A DNA stretch of 34,898 bases, from positions 1 through 34,898 of the forward strand of contig NZ_WVIC01000042.1 in assembly GCF_009939295.1 (NCBI RefSeq), in the 5' to 3' direction. Below, piece after piece: positions 1,807-10,220 of this stretch; position 1 is the stretch's first letter, and the number at the start of each line of letters is the position of its first letter. The translations under genes were made by a program, and so were the position numbers. Origin of the DNA: Petrachloros mirabilis ULC683 (lineage in GTDB: Bacteria > Cyanobacteriota > Cyanobacteriia > Thermosynechococcales > Thermosynechococcaceae). The notes under the pieces are model-generated. The model made no database searches. It was not told the DNA's origin and saw only the letters and a list, made by a program, of their open reading frames with translations.

Positions 1807-3624
1807 CTAGCGATAGTTTTGCGCTTGGGTTTCAAACAAATGGGCGTAAGTGCCCTGCAACGCCATTAACTGCTCATGGGTGCCATGCTCAATAATCGAC
1901 CCCTGATCCATAACATAGATTCGATCGGCCATTTTCACCGTTGAGAGACGATGGCTAATTAAAATGGCTGCTTGCCCTTCAATTAATTCGCGAAACTGCC
2001 GAAAAATCTCATACTCTGCCTTGGGATCCATCGCACTAGTCGGCTCGTCTAGTACAATCACCTGAGAATCTCGCAAAAAGGCGCGCGCCAATGCCACTTT
2101 CTGCCATTGCCCGATACTCAGTTCTTCGCCCTGGTCAAACATCTTCCCCAGGATAGTGTCGTATCCCTGAGGCAAACGCTGAATCACAGCATCAGCCCCC
2201 GAGCGTCTCGCCGCCGCCAACACCCGCTCATCGCTCGGCGGTAAATCTACATTCCCCAGCCAAATGTTTTCCTGAGCAGTGAAGTGATACTTAACATAGT
2301 CTTGAAAAATCACGCTGATTTGACGGCGTAAGTCTTCTTGACTGACTTGTTTGAGGTCAATTCCATCAATGGAAATTTTGCCCGCCGTTGGGTCGTAGAG
2401 GCGGCAGAGCAGCTTAATCAGTGTCGTCTTGCCAGAGCCATTTTCGCCCACTAACGCAATCGTCTCCCCTGGCCCTAAGGTGAGTGAAATATTCTGCAAC
2501 GCTTGGCGATCGCTGTTGGCATAGCTAAAGCTCACCCGGTCAAACACAATGCCTTGGCGTATCGGTTGAGGAATCAAGGTAGGTTGGACAGGTTCTACCA
2601 CCGTTGGCTTTAAGTCTAAAAACTCGTAGAGATTGGCCAGAAATAAGTTGTCCTCATAAAGCCCAGAGATGCCAACCAGGAAACTTTTCAAAGCTGACTG
2701 CCCCCGTTGCAGGGCTTGATGATAAAGTACTAAATCCCCAATTTGCAACCCACCCCAAACACTTTGATAGGCAATATAGCCATAGACACCAAAAGTGACC
2801 ACACTAGCAAATGCCTCGGCCACCAAAGACGCCATCGACTGGCGGGTAATAATAGCCAGATTTTCGTCGTAAATCTTCTCGCGGAGACCTCGAAAGCGAT
2901 CACGGAACAAGACACCGAGGCTAAAGAGGCGAAGTTCTTTGGCATGAACATCTGCGGTCATCATGTAGCCTAGATACATAGCCTGACGCTCCATCGCTGT
3001 GCGTCGCCGTCGCCAGTCGTACATGACCCGAGCAAACTTAAATCGCACAAACATAGCCGGAAGGGCAGCTACGAGTAAAATACCAGCCAGACCCCAGTAG
3101 AGAGCTAGTAACAACCCGACTACGGCAACAAGTGTGATGCCACCCTGTCCCAACTGCACCAACCGATACAAGATTTGGTTCGGGCGATAGGATGCCTCCT
3201 GCTGCGCCCGCTGCAAAGCATCGTAATAACGGGAATTTTCGTAATACTCCAGATCGGCCTCAATAGACTTATCATGCAAAATTGTTTGCATGTAGTCTGT
3301 CACGCGCTGACTTTGAGCCGCATTGGCCAGTTCTGCTAAAGAATTCACAATAGAGGTCGCTAGGGTGACCACTCCAGTCAAAATCAGCCAAAAGACAACC
3401 TGGTTAAACGCCAAACTTTTGTCTGCTGCAGTGAGACTATCAGCAATGGCGTCAATCACCAGCTTGGTCAAATAAATAGCGGCAAGTGGCAAGATGCTTT
3501 GCAGCATCAACAGCAACACCCGCACGACGGTCCATTTGGGAGATCCTTGCCAAACGAATCTAAGCGCAGGCAGAATATGAAGCGTCGTTTTTAGCTTGCC
3601 TTTTAATTGACTGAACAGACTCAT
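1807..3624 (-). CDS. Lasso peptide ABC exporter (D protein)
   Basis: A 605-residue half-transporter with the membrane domain (about 1-330) fused to an ATPase (about 355-600). Such proteins export lasso peptides and give producer immunity in known clusters (McjD type). Visible motifs are Walker A GENGSGKT (393-400), signature LSIGQ (502-506; the second G of the usual LSGGQ motif is at 505 but I replaces the first), Walker B VIVLDEP with catalytic Glu527, and the H-loop His558 in ISHRL. There is no N-terminal peptidase C39 domain, consistent with leader removal by a separate B2 protein. Its ATG overlaps the kinase stop as ATGA (3621-3624), so it is translationally coupled and last in the operon. 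Export of this particular peptide is inferred from context. Confidence 0.88.
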   Translation of the reverse strand: MSLFSQLKGKLKTTLHILPALRFVWQGSPKWTVVRVLLLMLQSILPLAAIYLTKLVIDAIADSLTAADKSLAFNQVVFWLILTGVVTLATSIVNSLAELANAAQSQRVTDYMQTILHDKSIEADLEYYENSRYYDALQRAQQEASYRPNQILYRLVQLGQGGITLVAVVGLLLALYWGLAGILLVAALPAMFVRFKFARVMYDWRRRRTAMERQAMYLGYMMTADVHAKELRLFSLGVLFRDRFRGLREKIYDENLAIITRQSMASLVAEAFASVVTFGVYGYIAYQSVWGGLQIGDLVLYHQALQRGQSALKSFLVGISGLYEDNLFLANLYEFLDLKPTVVEPVQPTLIPQPIRQGIVFDRVSFSYANSDRQALQNISLTLGPGETIALVGENGSGKTTLIKLLCRLYDPTAGKISIDGIDLKQVSQEDLRRQISVIFQDYVKYHFTAQENIWLGNVDLPPSDERVLAAARRSGADAVIQRLPQGYDTILGKMFDQGEELSIGQWQKVALARAFLRDSQVIVLDEPTSAMDPKAEYEIFRQFRELIEGQAAILISHRLSTVKMADRIYVMDQGSIIEHGTHEQLMALQGTYAHLFETQAQNYR

Positions 3625-4532
3625 ACAGTCTGCACCGACCTATTAAGATGCGTCTCAATGAGGCGAATTGTATCTGGAAGCAAATCCAAGTTGGATGGCC
3701 GTAATAAATGATGAATCGGAGTACAATTAGCAAGCTGAGTCAAATTCAGTAAATGAGTTGCCTCACTCTCTTGCAAAAGTTCTTGATCAAAACGGGTGAC
3801 GTAAGAGTTTTTATATAAGTACCGCAGAATTTTCTGAGGGCTTAGTTCTGAAATTGAGAGTCGGGGCGCTTGCCCCAGAATAAAAATTTGATGCAGGGGC
3901 AACTTACAAGTGGAAAACCCTTCTGTAAGACACCAGTTTCGCTTTTCGAGATGGGGAACTAGCGAAGGAAGGGTACTGGGATCTGTTCCCAGAGACTTGA
4001 CCGCATCAGGCCATAGCTTCAATTGCGGAAAGGCTGGAATCACCCAAGGCTGATGATCTTTACTGAGATCAAGGGCAATGACATCATCACCAATCAATTC
4101 ATATCCTTGACGGTTAAGCGCAGCAGCAAGGGTGGATTTACCCCATCCCTTATCTCCTAAAAAGATAACTGCTTTGCCATTAATATCAACAGCACTTCCA
4201 TGTAAGACAAGATAGCCTCTTTGGTGCAAGATTACGCCAATTGCTGCACCTAAAATAAAAAGTCTGAGCCGATCTTCATCAGTTTCTGGAGATGGCTCAA
4301 TCGTGATAGAGTGTCCTTGGCTAACCAGGAAAGTTCCAACCCCTTCCCAAAATATATATAGCCCATCTGAAGTGAATTGAAAGGCATGAGGTAATGAAAT
4401 ATTCTCCAATGGAGAATATTTTAAATTCCTGACTTTAATCGTGACATCAGGTGCCACTTCAGAGCTTACAATCAACTCTGGCAGCTCAATTTCAGAATGA
4501 ACCTGGAGATCGTAAGCAGAATAAGTATACAT
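3621..4532 (-). CDS. HPr-kinase-like lasso precursor kinase
   Basis: 303 residues. The C-terminal half resembles the HPrK/P kinase fold: LHGSAV (110-115), P-loop GDKGWGKST (126-134), the acidic pair D149-D150 in ELIGDDVIAL, and the family phrase PQLKLWPDAV. The N-terminal 100 residues lack the classical HPrK regulatory domain, as in kinases found in lasso clusters (PadeK, ThcoK), which phosphorylate the C-terminal Ser of the precursor. The adjacent precursor does end in Ser. The gene sits between the precursor and the exporter and is coupled to the latter by a 4-base overlap. A metabolic HPr kinase is very unlikely because it is too short for that family's layout and lies inside the operon. 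Activity on the peptide is inference. Confidence 0.85.
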   Translation of the reverse strand: MYTYSAYDLQVHSEIELPELIVSSEVAPDVTIKVRNLKYSPLENISLPHAFQFTSDGLYIFWEGVGTFLVSQGHSITIEPSPETDEDRLRLFILGAAIGVILHQRGYLVLHGSAVDINGKAVIFLGDKGWGKSTLAAALNRQGYELIGDDVIALDLSKDHQPWVIPAFPQLKLWPDAVKSLGTDPSTLPSLVPHLEKRNWCLTEGFSTCKLPLHQIFILGQAPRLSISELSPQKILRYLYKNSYVTRFDQELLQESEATHLLNLTQLANCTPIHHLLRPSNLDLLPDTIRLIETHLNRSVQTV

Positions 4533-4576: not shown

Positions 4577-4617
4577 TATAGGGACAACAACCTTATTGGC
4601 AAGTTGTTGTCCCTATA
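4577..4617 (-). terminator. Stem-loop and T-rich tract between precursor and kinase (attenuator)
   Basis: TATAGGGACAACAA (4577-4590) pairs perfectly over 14 bp with TTGTTGTCCCTATA (4604-4617), with a 13-base loop. Read on the minus strand, it begins 33 bases past the precursor stop and is followed by TTTTTTATATTTGTTT, a typical intrinsic terminator tail. Since the kinase and exporter lie downstream on the same strand, it probably terminates partially, giving more precursor mRNA than enzyme mRNA. It could also protect the 3' end of a short precursor transcript. Confidence 0.8.
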
Positions 4618-4650: not shown

Positions 4651-4800
4651 CTAGCTAGCAACACTAGTGATGCCATCGGGACCTACAGGCGTTCCGAGAG
4701 GAACATCAGTTTGTGAAACTCCACCTTGTTGAGTAAGAACCTCAACATCACCATGGATGGTCAGAAAAGGCTTGGCGTAAGCTTTTTTGTTAGAACTCAT
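4651..4800 (-). CDS. Lasso peptide precursor (A peptide)
   Basis: A 49-residue frame between the cyclase and kinase genes, preceded by AGGAGA 6 bases before the ATG. The leader (about residues 1-24 or 1-25) has the motif that lasso RRE proteins recognise: Y8-A-K-P11-F-L13, then G17 and T23 (YxxPxL...G...T). The core is G/V/T/P-rich: it starts QGGVSQTDVPLG and ends GITSVAS. If T23 is the usual penultimate leader residue, the core begins at Gln25 and the ring closes on Asp32 (position 8). If cleavage is one residue later, Gly26 to Asp32 gives a 7-residue ring. The last residue is Ser49, the expected target of the neighbouring kinase. No Cys is present, so it would be a class II (disulphide-free) lasso. 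The assignment is strong; the cleavage register is not resolved. Confidence 0.88.
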   Translation of the reverse strand: MSSNKKAYAKPFLTIHGDVEVLTQQGGVSQTDVPLGTPVGPDGITSVAS

Positions 4801-4972
4801 TGGTTTCTCCTATGTATGGTATTGACAGGCTTCAAAATTGCCCTTAACTGGGCATTGATACAGCTTCCTCAACCTAGGTTTCTCAAGAGAGAGTCTAGTC
4901 TTTAGAATGGCTGTGCTATTGAATTAATCCATTCAATAGGGCAACCATCTGGTCGTTCGAGACAATTATAAC

Positions 4973-6931
4973 CTAAGACATAGAGATTGTCTTCCTATCT
5001 GATGTTTTGTTTTCAACACTTTTATTAAGCCACAACGACAAGTTTAGCGCTTTCCACAGCTCATCATCACCTAATTTACTATCTGAACCAAAAAAAGATT
5101 CATATGCTTGATTTAGAGCAAAAAAGTCGAAAAAATGAACCATAGACTCGGGAGGATCATCCAAAAGTGCTTGGATTCGCTTTTGCTCGAATTTGTGGAA
5201 AATATATCGAAAGTTAGGTCCTAAGTTTGACTTGCCACCTCGCCACTGCACCTCTCTTGGTAAGATGCCGTCTAAACCCCGTCGCATAATCATCCGAGTC
5301 CATCCATCTCGAACTTTTTGCTCGGGGGGCAGCGACAAGCAGAATTCCACCAGTCGTTTGTCCCAAAAGGGGAAACGAGGCTCAATGCCAAAGGCTGCTG
5401 CACTCTTATCCAGCACCTCTAGGGTATAAGGCATCACGCCGCGCACCAGTGAGCGATAATGCTCTGCACGTTCACTTTGCAGGGCTGCTATTTCGGCTTG
5501 TTTTTGCGCGTTTAAGCGCTGTTCCAATGACAAGCGCTTAATCAGGTCAGGGTTAATCGTGTCTGGATAAGCGGCTGGTGGGGTGCGCTTAGATGTCCAA
5601 GCTTGCTTTTTTGTGATGGTTCTCCAGATGCGCTGCCCACCCCGAATTAATCTTGACTTGCGAAAGCCAAAATTCCATAGGAAGGGCCACAACCATTTGA
5701 ATAGAGGTTCGTTGGAGTTTCGACAAAATCCTTGCAATTCCCGGATTAAGTCACCCCATCTGCCAGCAATCGCCAGCTCTCGGAAGAATCCTATGCCATG
5801 AGAAATAGTGCTATCCCCATCGAACCCATCCAAGATGACCCTTACCCCTTTGTGGTGAGCTATGTCGTAGATACCCCAATTCAGAAATAAGTTAAAGGAA
5901 AAGAGTGGCTCATCCTGATGCCAAAGGATTTGATCAATGTCAGTCAGTGGGCTGCGTTGATCTCCATGCAAGTAATGTGGTGTGAAGCCGCCTTGATCCA
6001 ATACTGCATTGATATAGAATCGTTCGTCACACTCTTTGACCGTATCAAAAATAGCAGAGAAGGTAGGCAGAGGTGGCTGATGGCTTTCACTTTGAATGTG
6101 GCGGGCAGTACAGGTAATAGCAGAAGAATCTAGCCCTCCGCTTAACATAGATCCGACTGGCACTGCACTCCGTAGACGACAGGAGACGGCCTCAATAAAA
6201 ATTTCTCGAAACTGATCAGCATAGGCTTGATCAGTCTCAAGGTGTAAAGTCTGAATGGCATCCAATGACCAATACGGCTCTAAGGTCACTGACTCTGCCC
6301 GAATAAGCAGGCGATGGGCAGGAGGAAGCCGCCAAATATCTTCATAGAATGTGATGGCTGTATCTTCGAATAAAGAAAGGAGATAATCGCCGATTCGGAC
6401 TTCATTGATTTGGCGGGGAACATTAGTTTGACTTAGTAGGGCTTTAACCTCACTGCCAAATATAAAACTCTGGTCATTGAGATAATAATAGAATGGCTTC
6501 ACGCCAAAGTGATCTCGGGCACAAAAGAGGTGTTGTTGTTGTTTATCCCAAATGGCAAAAGCAAAATCTCCAATCAAATAGTCGAGGCACTGCTCTCCCC
6601 AGCGCTGATAGGCTTTGAGAATGAGTTGACTATCTGAAATCTCAAAGCTGGAACATGGATCGATGTTCAAAGCCTGCATCAGTGCTTTGCGGTTGTCAAT
6701 GCGGGCATCGGCAGTAATAACGTAGTCCTCACCAGGACTGACCAATGGGAGAACTTCGTGTTTTGACTCTGGAGTGGTATGCAACATACAATGCCCCAGG
6801 CCGATAGAGCCATGATGCCATTGCTGAATGCCATCTGGTCCTCGATGAGCCAGTGCCTGCGTCATTTGCGCTAAGTCACTTGGGCTGACAGCTTGCTGAT
6901 TGCGATAAAAGAGACCTGCAATGGCGCTCAT
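4973..6931 (-). CDS. Lasso cyclase, asparagine-synthetase-like (C protein)
   Basis: 652 residues, AsnB-like. It has an N-terminal glutaminase-like domain (about 1-200, with LAHRGPDG at 28-34 and GDFAFAIWD at 121-129) and an ATP-dependent synthetase domain with PP-loop SGGLDSS (264-270). In lasso clusters this enzyme adenylates the Asp/Glu side chain of the core and closes the macrolactam ring. Residue 2 is Ser where true glutamine-dependent asparagine synthetases have the nucleophile Cys, so ammonia release from Gln should be lost. This fits a cyclase and argues against a housekeeping AsnB. It ends 172 bases before the precursor start and begins 66 bases after B2 on the same strand. Confidence 0.88.
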   Translation of the reverse strand: MSAIAGLFYRNQQAVSPSDLAQMTQALAHRGPDGIQQWHHGSIGLGHCMLHTTPESKHEVLPLVSPGEDYVITADARIDNRKALMQALNIDPCSSFEISDSQLILKAYQRWGEQCLDYLIGDFAFAIWDKQQQHLFCARDHFGVKPFYYYLNDQSFIFGSEVKALLSQTNVPRQINEVRIGDYLLSLFEDTAITFYEDIWRLPPAHRLLIRAESVTLEPYWSLDAIQTLHLETDQAYADQFREIFIEAVSCRLRSAVPVGSMLSGGLDSSAITCTARHIQSESHQPPLPTFSAIFDTVKECDERFYINAVLDQGGFTPHYLHGDQRSPLTDIDQILWHQDEPLFSFNLFLNWGIYDIAHHKGVRVILDGFDGDSTISHGIGFFRELAIAGRWGDLIRELQGFCRNSNEPLFKWLWPFLWNFGFRKSRLIRGGQRIWRTITKKQAWTSKRTPPAAYPDTINPDLIKRLSLEQRLNAQKQAEIAALQSERAEHYRSLVRGVMPYTLEVLDKSAAAFGIEPRFPFWDKRLVEFCLSLPPEQKVRDGWTRMIMRRGLDGILPREVQWRGGKSNLGPNFRYIFHKFEQKRIQALLDDPPESMVHFFDFFALNQAYESFFGSDSKLGDDELWKALNLSLWLNKSVENKTSDRKTISMS

Positions 6932-6997: not shown

Positions 6998-7474
6998 TCA
7001 ACGAAATTGCTCGGCTGTTGCCAGACTTGAAAAAGGGATAAAGCTTTGCAGCTCTGAGACTTGGCCGATAATGACTTGGTGATTTAATTCAACCCATGCA
7101 TGAGCTTCAAGTTGATTGCCTAATCCCTTCTTAACTCCAATACGGAGTTCACTGGGATATCCCCGACGCCGCAACAGAATTTGAGTCGTGAGGGCACGTG
7201 CCAAGCATTTAGCCCCACCTGGCATGTATTGGGTTGACCAGTTAACAGCTTTTACACATCGACCAATTGCAAATTGGCATTGAGGAGAATTTTGGTTATA
7301 GTTCTCCTGCCCACTTATCATCTTGGAGTTTTCCATTTTTTTCTGGAACTCAAGCAGTGATTGAAAGGGCAAGCACCACAACCCAAACTTCATTAAGAAT
7401 AGAAGGAAAAAGGCTTTCATAAATAAAGTTTTGTCCGAGGAAGAAAGGCGCAGAAATCTATAAATTTTTTTCAT
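6998..7474 (-). CDS. Lasso leader peptidase, transglutaminase-like (B2 protein)
   Basis: 158 residues of the Transglut_core3 / McjB C-terminal type, the cysteine protease that removes the leader. The nucleophile is Cys90 in GGAKCLARALTTQ and the His is His125 in EAHAWVEL, both in the expected context. The third residue, usually an Asp shortly after the His, is not obvious: the nearest equivalent position (131) is Asn. An N-terminal hydrophobic segment (about 20-37, FFLLFLMKFGLW) may anchor it to the membrane near the exporter. ATG at 7474 is chosen over the GTG one codon upstream. The gene overlaps the end of B1, so the two are co-translated. Confidence 0.83.
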   Translation of the reverse strand: MKKIYRFLRLSSSDKTLFMKAFFLLFLMKFGLWCLPFQSLLEFQKKMENSKMISGQENYNQNSPQCQFAIGRCVKAVNWSTQYMPGGAKCLARALTTQILLRRRGYPSELRIGVKKGLGNQLEAHAWVELNHQVIIGQVSELQSFIPFSSLATAEQFR

Positions 7475-7748
7475 CACAAATGCTAATTAGCTTTGCGTCT
7501 AAAAGATTATGGAGCAACTGAAGCACATCATTATTGCATTGATTTATCTCAACATCGTAATTATTGATAACCTCATTGACAACTGAATTCACAGACTGAG
7601 GTGATTGAATAAACTTCCAAATAATGGATCCGACCTCATTCAGTCCATAGTACATGCCCGATTTTAAGTCTAATATTACTGATTCATTAACCAAGTCAGA
7701 AGAGACTTGCTCAGGTTTCGCAACAACGATAGTAGAATTTGTGATCAT
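7458..7748 (-). CDS. PqqD-like leader-recognition protein (B1, RRE)
   Basis: A 96-residue stand-alone RiPP recognition element. The PqqD-fold pattern is visible: an early strand pair (VSSDLVNESVILDLKSGMYYGLNEVG), the central helix phrase GSIIWKFIQ, and a C-terminal helix rich in Leu (DVLQLLHNLLDAKLI). It binds the YxxPxL leader and presents the precursor to B2. It is the first gene of the lasso operon and overlaps B2 by 17 bases. Codon use and base composition are clearly more AT-rich than in the dnaK region, as for B2, which hints at horizontal acquisition of the cluster. Confidence 0.82.
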   Translation of the reverse strand: MITNSTIVVAKPEQVSSDLVNESVILDLKSGMYYGLNEVGSIIWKFIQSPQSVNSVVNEVINNYDVEINQCNNDVLQLLHNLLDAKLISICDEKNL

Positions 7749-9068: not shown

Positions 9069-10220
9069 ATGGTGGGTACTAATGTGCCAAGAGAAATCGA
9101 ACTGCTCTGCTGCTGCACACGTCCTAGGCTTGACTCAGCAACGTTAAACCAGATGCAATCACTGTTGTTATCTGGTATTGACTGGTCAGTTGCGGTTCGA
9201 TTGGCTCGTCAGCACCGAGTACACCTACTTCTACATCAACGTCTTGAGAAAGCTGCCTTGGCGATGATGCCCCCAGATATATTGCAGCAGTTGTCTAATT
9301 TGGTGCGATTTAATGCTATCTCTAATGTTCGGTTGCTACAAGAGTTAACGCATTTACTGCACCTGTTTGAGTCAGAAAATATTGTTGCTATCCCGTTTAA
9401 GGGGCCTATGCTAGCCATAATGGCCTACGGCGACTTGGCGCTACGCCAGTTTGGGGATCTTGATATTTTGATTCCCAGTGGAGCAATGCTGACAGCTCAA
9501 GAGGTGCTGCTTAAGGATGGCTATGTTCAACAGCGGTGTGGGCGGGAGTTGAATCCAGGCAGCGCCAGCCAGCTTCTTAATTCTCAGTATCGCTACGATG
9601 AGTGGTACTGGAAAACATTGAACCAAAAGGATCGTTTTGGGGCTCGGGTAGAGCTACATTGGTCTACTGCACCGACGCATACTATTTTTCCTATGCATGC
9701 TGAGTTTATCTGGCAAAATCTAGAGCCGATAAAGCTTGCAGGCACTGAGGTGATGAGCTTATCAACAACCAATTTGTTGTTGATGTTGTGCATCAATTAC
9801 TCGAAAGATCATTGGCGATACCTACGCATGATCTGTGATATCGCGGCAATCTGCGATCGCACCCCCCACTTAGATTGGGACACCATCTTGGGAGAAGCCG
9901 AATTTCTAGGTCGCACCCGCGCCGTATTACTAGGGCTAAATCTAACCCACCAACTGCTGAAGCTGCCACTGCCCGAGATCATCGCCCACCGAATTCAAGC
10001 TGACCCAGCCATAGCCAGTTTGACTCAGAACGTCTGCCAGCGTTTATTTTGCGATAATGGCAGTGAGCCCAGCTTAGCCGCAAAGATCCCCTACAACTTT
10101 CAACTCCGGGATCGCCTTGCAGACAAGTGGCGGTATAGCCTGTATAGCCTCCTCAAAGTCGTAGACAAGCCCAATGACAAGAGGGTTCAGCCCATAAAAG
10201 AAGTGAAATCCTTGGCCTGA
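9069..10220 (+). CDS. Nucleotidyltransferase-family protein associated with lasso cluster
   Basis: 383 residues of the NTP_transf_5 (PF14907) type. The catalytic signature is PFKGPMLA (109-116) followed by YGDLALRQFGDLDIL (120-134), where Asp130 and Asp132 would bind metal. Members occur repeatedly in lasso and other RiPP clusters next to HPr-like kinases and B2 proteases, where they are thought to modify the phosphorylated peptide. From memory, the pseudomycoidin homologue PsmN is reported to add hexose to the phospho-Ser. Here the gene is divergent from the lasso operon, about 1.3 kb from B1. Membership in the same pathway is inference from family and proximity. The 3' third uses a more GC-rich, HIP1-containing sequence than the 5' part. 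Confidence 0.8.
   Translation: MVGTNVPREIELLCCCTRPRLDSATLNQMQSLLLSGIDWSVAVRLARQHRVHLLLHQRLEKAALAMMPPDILQQLSNLVRFNAISNVRLLQELTHLLHLFESENIVAIPFKGPMLAIMAYGDLALRQFGDLDILIPSGAMLTAQEVLLKDGYVQQRCGRELNPGSASQLLNSQYRYDEWYWKTLNQKDRFGARVELHWSTAPTHTIFPMHAEFIWQNLEPIKLAGTEVMSLSTTNLLLMLCINYSKDHWRYLRMICDIAAICDRTPHLDWDTILGEAEFLGRTRAVLLGLNLTHQLLKLPLPEIIAHRIQADPAIASLTQNVCQRLFCDNGSEPSLAAKIPYNFQLRDRLADKWRYSLYSLLKVVDKPNDKRVQPIKEVKSLA

Follow-up and report, generated by a model that had tools for sequence, protein, structure and literature searches.

We identified a lasso peptide precursor gene of 49 codons in the window, by which we mean the whole 34,898-nucleotide stretch of DNA from Petrachloros mirabilis ULC683 that was analysed. 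At a probability of about 0.9, we read it as gene A, encoding the class II (no Cys) precursor of a B1-B2-C-A-K-D cluster that has a nucleotidyltransferase gene close by, and its product as having a 25-residue core that would be closed by a Gln1-Asp8 ring and phosphorylated on Ser25. The precursor joins a family that is already described and covered by curated models, and the system is not of a new kind. The features of the locus are collected in Table 1.

Table 1. Genes and signals of the lasso peptide locus, with positions in the window
Feature	Position	Strand	Size	Evidence or remark
ABC exporter D	1807..3624	-	605 aa	PF00005, PF00664; syntenic homologues 36-68% identical
HprK-like lasso precursor kinase K	3621..4532	-	303 aa	family matches, kinase alignment, tree
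Putative intrinsic terminator/attenuator after precursor	4577..4617	-		17-bp stem, loop 7, then TTTTTT
Lasso precursor A	4651..4800	-	49 aa + TAG	leader M1-Q24, predicted core Q25-S49 QGGVSQTDVPLGTPVGPDGITSVAS
Shine-Dalgarno AGGAGA	4806..4811	-		5 nt upstream of ATG; sequence
Promoter-like site AAGACA-17-TATAAT, between C and A	4965..4993	-		consensus match only
Lasso cyclase C (asparagine-synthetase-like)	4973..6931	-	652 aa	NF033535 854 bits (cut-off 525); PF00733 + PF13537
Leader peptidase B2	6998..7477	-	159 aa	NF033537 102 bits (cut-off 33); Transglut_core3
B1 RRE (PqqD-like)	7458..7748	-	96 aa	PF05402 63 bits; NF033536 79 bits (cut-off 80)
Nucleotidyltransferase (NTP_transf_5), PsmN-like candidate tailoring enzyme	9069..10220	+	383 aa	PF14907 187 bits

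The precursor gene and its cluster

The ATG frame encodes MSSNKKAYAKPFLTIHGDVEVLTQQGGVSQTDVPLGTPVGPDGITSVAS, with a predicted leader MSSNKKAYAKPFLTIHGDVEVLTQ and a predicted core QGGVSQTDVPLGTPVGPDGITSVAS, and the stretch upstream of it, AGGAGAAACCA, carries the ribosome-binding site. An earlier note on this DNA had proposed a lasso precursor between the cyclase and kinase genes; the frame, its AGGAGA site and residues Y8, P11, L13, G17, T23 and D32 are exactly as it described. That the gene encodes a lasso precursor in a full cluster was confirmed, and family matches and codon comparison support the reading. Across all six reading frames of the 34.9-kb window there is a single instance of the strict leader motif Y..P.L...G.....T, whereas chance would give 0.033 per window (mean of 150 first-order Markov windows). 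The NF033528 model (lasso_cyano) aligned to residues 5-31 with an E-value of 2.4e-7 and 30.6 bits, 2.4 bits short of its 33-bit cut-off, a cut-off passed by three of the four closest homologues (L047, L048 and L050) and missed by L026 and L049. By this cut-off precursor A falls outside NF033528, and its homology to members of that family is clear. Automatic naming would miss precursor A because its score lies just below the cut-off. The earlier claim that such a gene is hidden from gene callers was overstated, since curated NCBI models exist for precursors this short.

Codon comparison with the homologues gave dN values of 0.39-0.44 and, where estimable, dS values of 1.3-1.8, corresponding to pairwise dN/dS ratios of about 0.24-0.34 that are rough because dS is close to saturation. 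A chance ORF was rejected on the rarity of the leader motif and on these ratios. Searches of viral contigs and plasmids with precursor A returned no match. A pseudo or silent precursor at this ORF, with the cluster using another one encoded elsewhere, is extremely unlikely; such an arrangement would fit the presence of a second B2/K/B1 locus on another contig of the genome, but the frame is intact, has a good ribosome-binding site and its own putative terminator, and appears to be under purifying selection. Moreover, a relaxed pattern revealed no further convincing leader-like short ORF in the vicinity of the cluster, and the relaxed motif gave only chance-like matches for a second precursor in the window.

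On the minus strand the genes are transcribed in the order B1, B2, C, A, K, D. Pfam and NCBIfam matches bore out the B1, B2, C, kinase and ABC exporter genes named in the earlier note, which missed the NTP_transf_5 gene. This nucleotidyltransferase gene is divergent from the operon, about 1.3 kb from B1, is the only copy found in the genome, and has homologues in many related clusters. The features by which lasso clusters are recognised are present, namely an AsnB-like C, a B1 RRE with a transglutaminase-like B2 leader peptidase, and a YxxPxL...G...T(-2) leader followed by an Asp or Glu at core position 7-9 (here D8). Cys91 and His126 of B2 are invariant in 51 homologues; at the position of the third catalytic residue of McjB (Asp), B2 has Gly, as do nearly all homologues. 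A branched, unthreaded macrolactam instead of a true lasso is a very unlikely product: threading is invisible in sequence, but the cyclase scores far above the cut-off of the lasso cyclase model NF033535. Elsewhere in the same genome, a second locus (L041 2568-8722, on contig C57 of G000) carries a B2-like gene, an HprK-like kinase, a sulfotransferase, a PqqD-like B1, ATPgrasp_ST and a divergent AsnB-like gene, with no recognisable YxxPxL precursor.

We also found a hairpin with a perfect 17-bp stem between the precursor and kinase genes (dG -26.6 kcal/mol, z -7.6), which was absent from the earlier note and is without conservation in relatives. It is present in a single copy in the genome, and its identity as a dispersed repeat was rejected on that ground. 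A terminator after A as a family trait was likewise rejected, the strong 17-bp hairpin occurring at this locus only; weaker hairpins follow A in L027, L049, L078 and L101.

Related clusters and the register of the core

Of 386 genomes of the phylum searched with the cyclase model NF033535, 20 matched at E <= 1e-100, and 17 scored above the cut-off of the model. A single-protein cyclase query gave no match against genome contigs, whereas an alignment-based query did, yielding 80 named loci. The best was Pleurocapsa sp. MO_192.B19, with a cyclase 57% identical, and the other best matches were Scytonematopsis contorta, Nostoc sp. MG11 and an Oculatellaceae MAG. Mesorhizobium, Rubrobacter, Halosimplex and others have clusters as well. 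The order B1-B2-C-(A)-K recurs in cyanobacterial clusters, usually with D next and often with the nucleotidyltransferase too. The earlier note had staked its reading on homologous short frames beside other cyanobacterial cyclases, and these are present in nearly all related clusters examined, in most of them at the corresponding position after C and before K.

Leader-bearing short frames lie close to the cyclase in most loci and gave 82 distinct precursors, 81 of which share the leader register (15 residues from Y to T), T(-2) being imposed by the search pattern with which they were collected. The closest group comprises our precursor, QGGVSQTDVPLGTPV, together with L047 NNGTSFVDVPQGTPV, L050 AGGGSRTDVPRGTTV, L026 QGGPPVRVDVPQGTPI and L048 QGGPAFRVDVPFGTPL. 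L028 and L061 (Thermosynechococcaceae cyanobacterium MS004) have identical precursors, and the genome behind L028 belongs to the same family as that of the window. In Mesorhizobium (L069-L075 and L101, except L072, which is Halosimplex) the precursors are near-identical, end in LTFS, have G1-D9 in the T(-2) register and are placed before B1, with the kinase after C.

The claim of a single Asp in the core holds for the ring region, where D32 (D8 of the predicted core) is the sole acid in positions 1-13; the tail has a further Asp, D42, within 'GPDG'. In the T(-2) register, the first acid at a position of at least 7 is at 9 in 45 and at 8 in 20 of the 82 precursors (65/82 together), the remainder having it at 10 (5), 11 (6) or 7 (3) or not at all (3), and two of the four closest homologues carry the ring acid at position 9 rather than 8. 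Known ring-acid positions are 7-9. The first ring-capable acid is at position 10 in L042_8751, L044 and L072 and at 11 in the precursors of L037, L046, L056, L078 and L079, which would imply rings of larger size or cleavage at another site.

The earlier note had allowed a core of 24 or 25 residues and had overlooked that it ends in Ser; of the two lengths, the register of the leader favours 25. The shorter core, with a 7-residue Gly1-Asp7 ring, would arise if B2 cut one residue later (TQQ|GG), which we consider unlikely. Such a cut would place Gly first, the commonest first residue among known lasso peptides, and three of the four closest homologues have G at the same place (L047 has N); it would also bring the family's ring sizes mostly to 7-9, the D10 cases (L042, L044) becoming D9. 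On the other hand, Thr would move to -3, whereas it is at -2 in experimentally studied precursors (PMC10368454). In addition, the T(-2) register puts G precisely at +1 in the Mesorhizobium members, L027 and L049, and Ala and Gly make up half of the +1 residues. Gln is core residue 1 in 13 of the 82 precursors. It is less usual than Gly or Ala and could form pyroglutamate, blocking ring closure, a point against the Gln1-Asp8 model. The computed lasso mass of the favoured QGGVSQTDVPLGTPVGPDGITSVAS 25-mer is 2320.155 Da, or 2400.121 Da with phosphate, compared with 2192.096 and 2272.062 for the 24-residue alternative.

The kinase and the C-terminal serine

The last residue of precursor A is S49 (Ser25 of the core), and Ser likewise ends L026, L047, L048 and L050, the closest precursors (Pleurocapsa, Scytonematopsis, Oculatellaceae and genome G305). 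The kinase, which had been called HPr-like, is indeed HprK-like and is better read as a paeninodin-type precursor Ser kinase. K has the full active-site set of characterised lasso kinases, and its H111, G126, G129, G131, K132, S133, D149 and D150 are spaced exactly as in the BsfK motif H148-G163-G166-G168-K169-S170-D186-D187 (PMC10368454). In 55 aligned kinases these residues are invariant, except for G126 (53/55). In a tree of the 55, our kinase groups with those of L026, L048 and L050 (support 100/98); that of L047 is truncated by a contig end. As described in PMC9266682, characterised lasso kinases phosphorylate the precursor's C-terminal Ser, as in paeninodin, and by analogy the final residue of our product is probably phosphorylated.

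An internal [GDSN]S.[DN] motif was found in 28 of the 55 precursors not ending in Ser, against a mean of 8.0 and a maximum of 17 in 2000 shuffles of the tails, and the kinases belonging to these 28 fall largely into another group of the tree; the counts are non-independent owing to near relatives, the motif was picked after viewing the sequences, and group labels were assigned manually. The tails of the long cyanobacterial precursors L030, L031, L034-L036 and L042-L045 carry [GD]SxD, as do those of L052-L055, L057, L076 and L081, and nearly all such long precursors end in a residue other than Ser. This internal [GD]SxD is possibly a phosphorylation site or a site of C-terminal trimming. We tentatively suggest, at less than even odds, that cyanobacterial kinases have two substrate classes, one acting on a C-terminal Ser (our locus and its close relatives) and the other on the Ser of internal [GD]SxD, and that our locus, with its nucleotidyltransferase, makes a lasso peptide that is phosphorylated at its C terminus and carries additional decoration.

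Proposed pathway and relation to known systems

We infer a pathway in which B1 would bind Y(-17)..P(-14).L(-12) of the leader, K would phosphorylate the C-terminal Ser of the precursor, and B2 would cut the leader after T(-2)-Q(-1). C would then activate Asp8 and join it to the N-terminal amine of Gln1, giving an 8-residue ring with a 17-residue tail in a presumably threaded product that D would export. The nucleotidyltransferase might perhaps add a further group to the phosphate in the manner of PsmN from pseudomycoidin, and the hairpin after A may allow more precursor mRNA than kinase and exporter mRNA.

Our locus resembles the NF033528 precursors and the NF033535 'lass_lactam_cya' cyclases in leader motif, cyclase family and gene order, but its short core has a terminal Ser, whereas many of the cyanobacterial cores collected exceed it in length and contain [GD]SxD internally. 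As far as the available accounts describe them, paeninodin (PadeA/K/B1/B2/C/D) and the ThcoK/SyanK systems share with it the split B1/B2, the HprK-like kinase with its active-site residues and the C-terminal Ser; they differ in belonging to another phylum, and in our system the first core residue is Gln in the favoured register and phosphorylation is predicted. The pseudomycoidin cluster (psm; PsmK, PsmN) likewise has a kinase and a nucleotidyltransferase in its neighbourhood, and a passage of PMC9266682 reports that this nucleotidyltransferase gene is needed for a hexose on the phosphorylated Ser; in our locus the gene is on the opposite strand and its role is that of a candidate. BsfA/BsfK of Bradymonas sediminis is alike in its B1/B2/C/D/K/N gene set and in YxxPxL at -17 to -12, with Y at -17 and L at -12 as in precursor A, but in BsfA residue -2 is Ile and the phosphate goes on Ser3, whereas our precursor has Thr(-2) and Gly at position 3 (PMC10368454).

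PMC8600333 and PMC7533575, both citing Tietz et al. 2017, already treat the lasso clusters of cyanobacteria as a class, and the latter describes cyanobacteria as underexplored for lasso peptides on the same authority. The phrase 'cyanobacterial lasso peptide' was not found in the literature searched. Precursor A gives a specific, testable peptide with a defined core and mass, and the 82 precursors tie kinase type to the position of Ser in the core, which suggests where the phosphate sits in this group.
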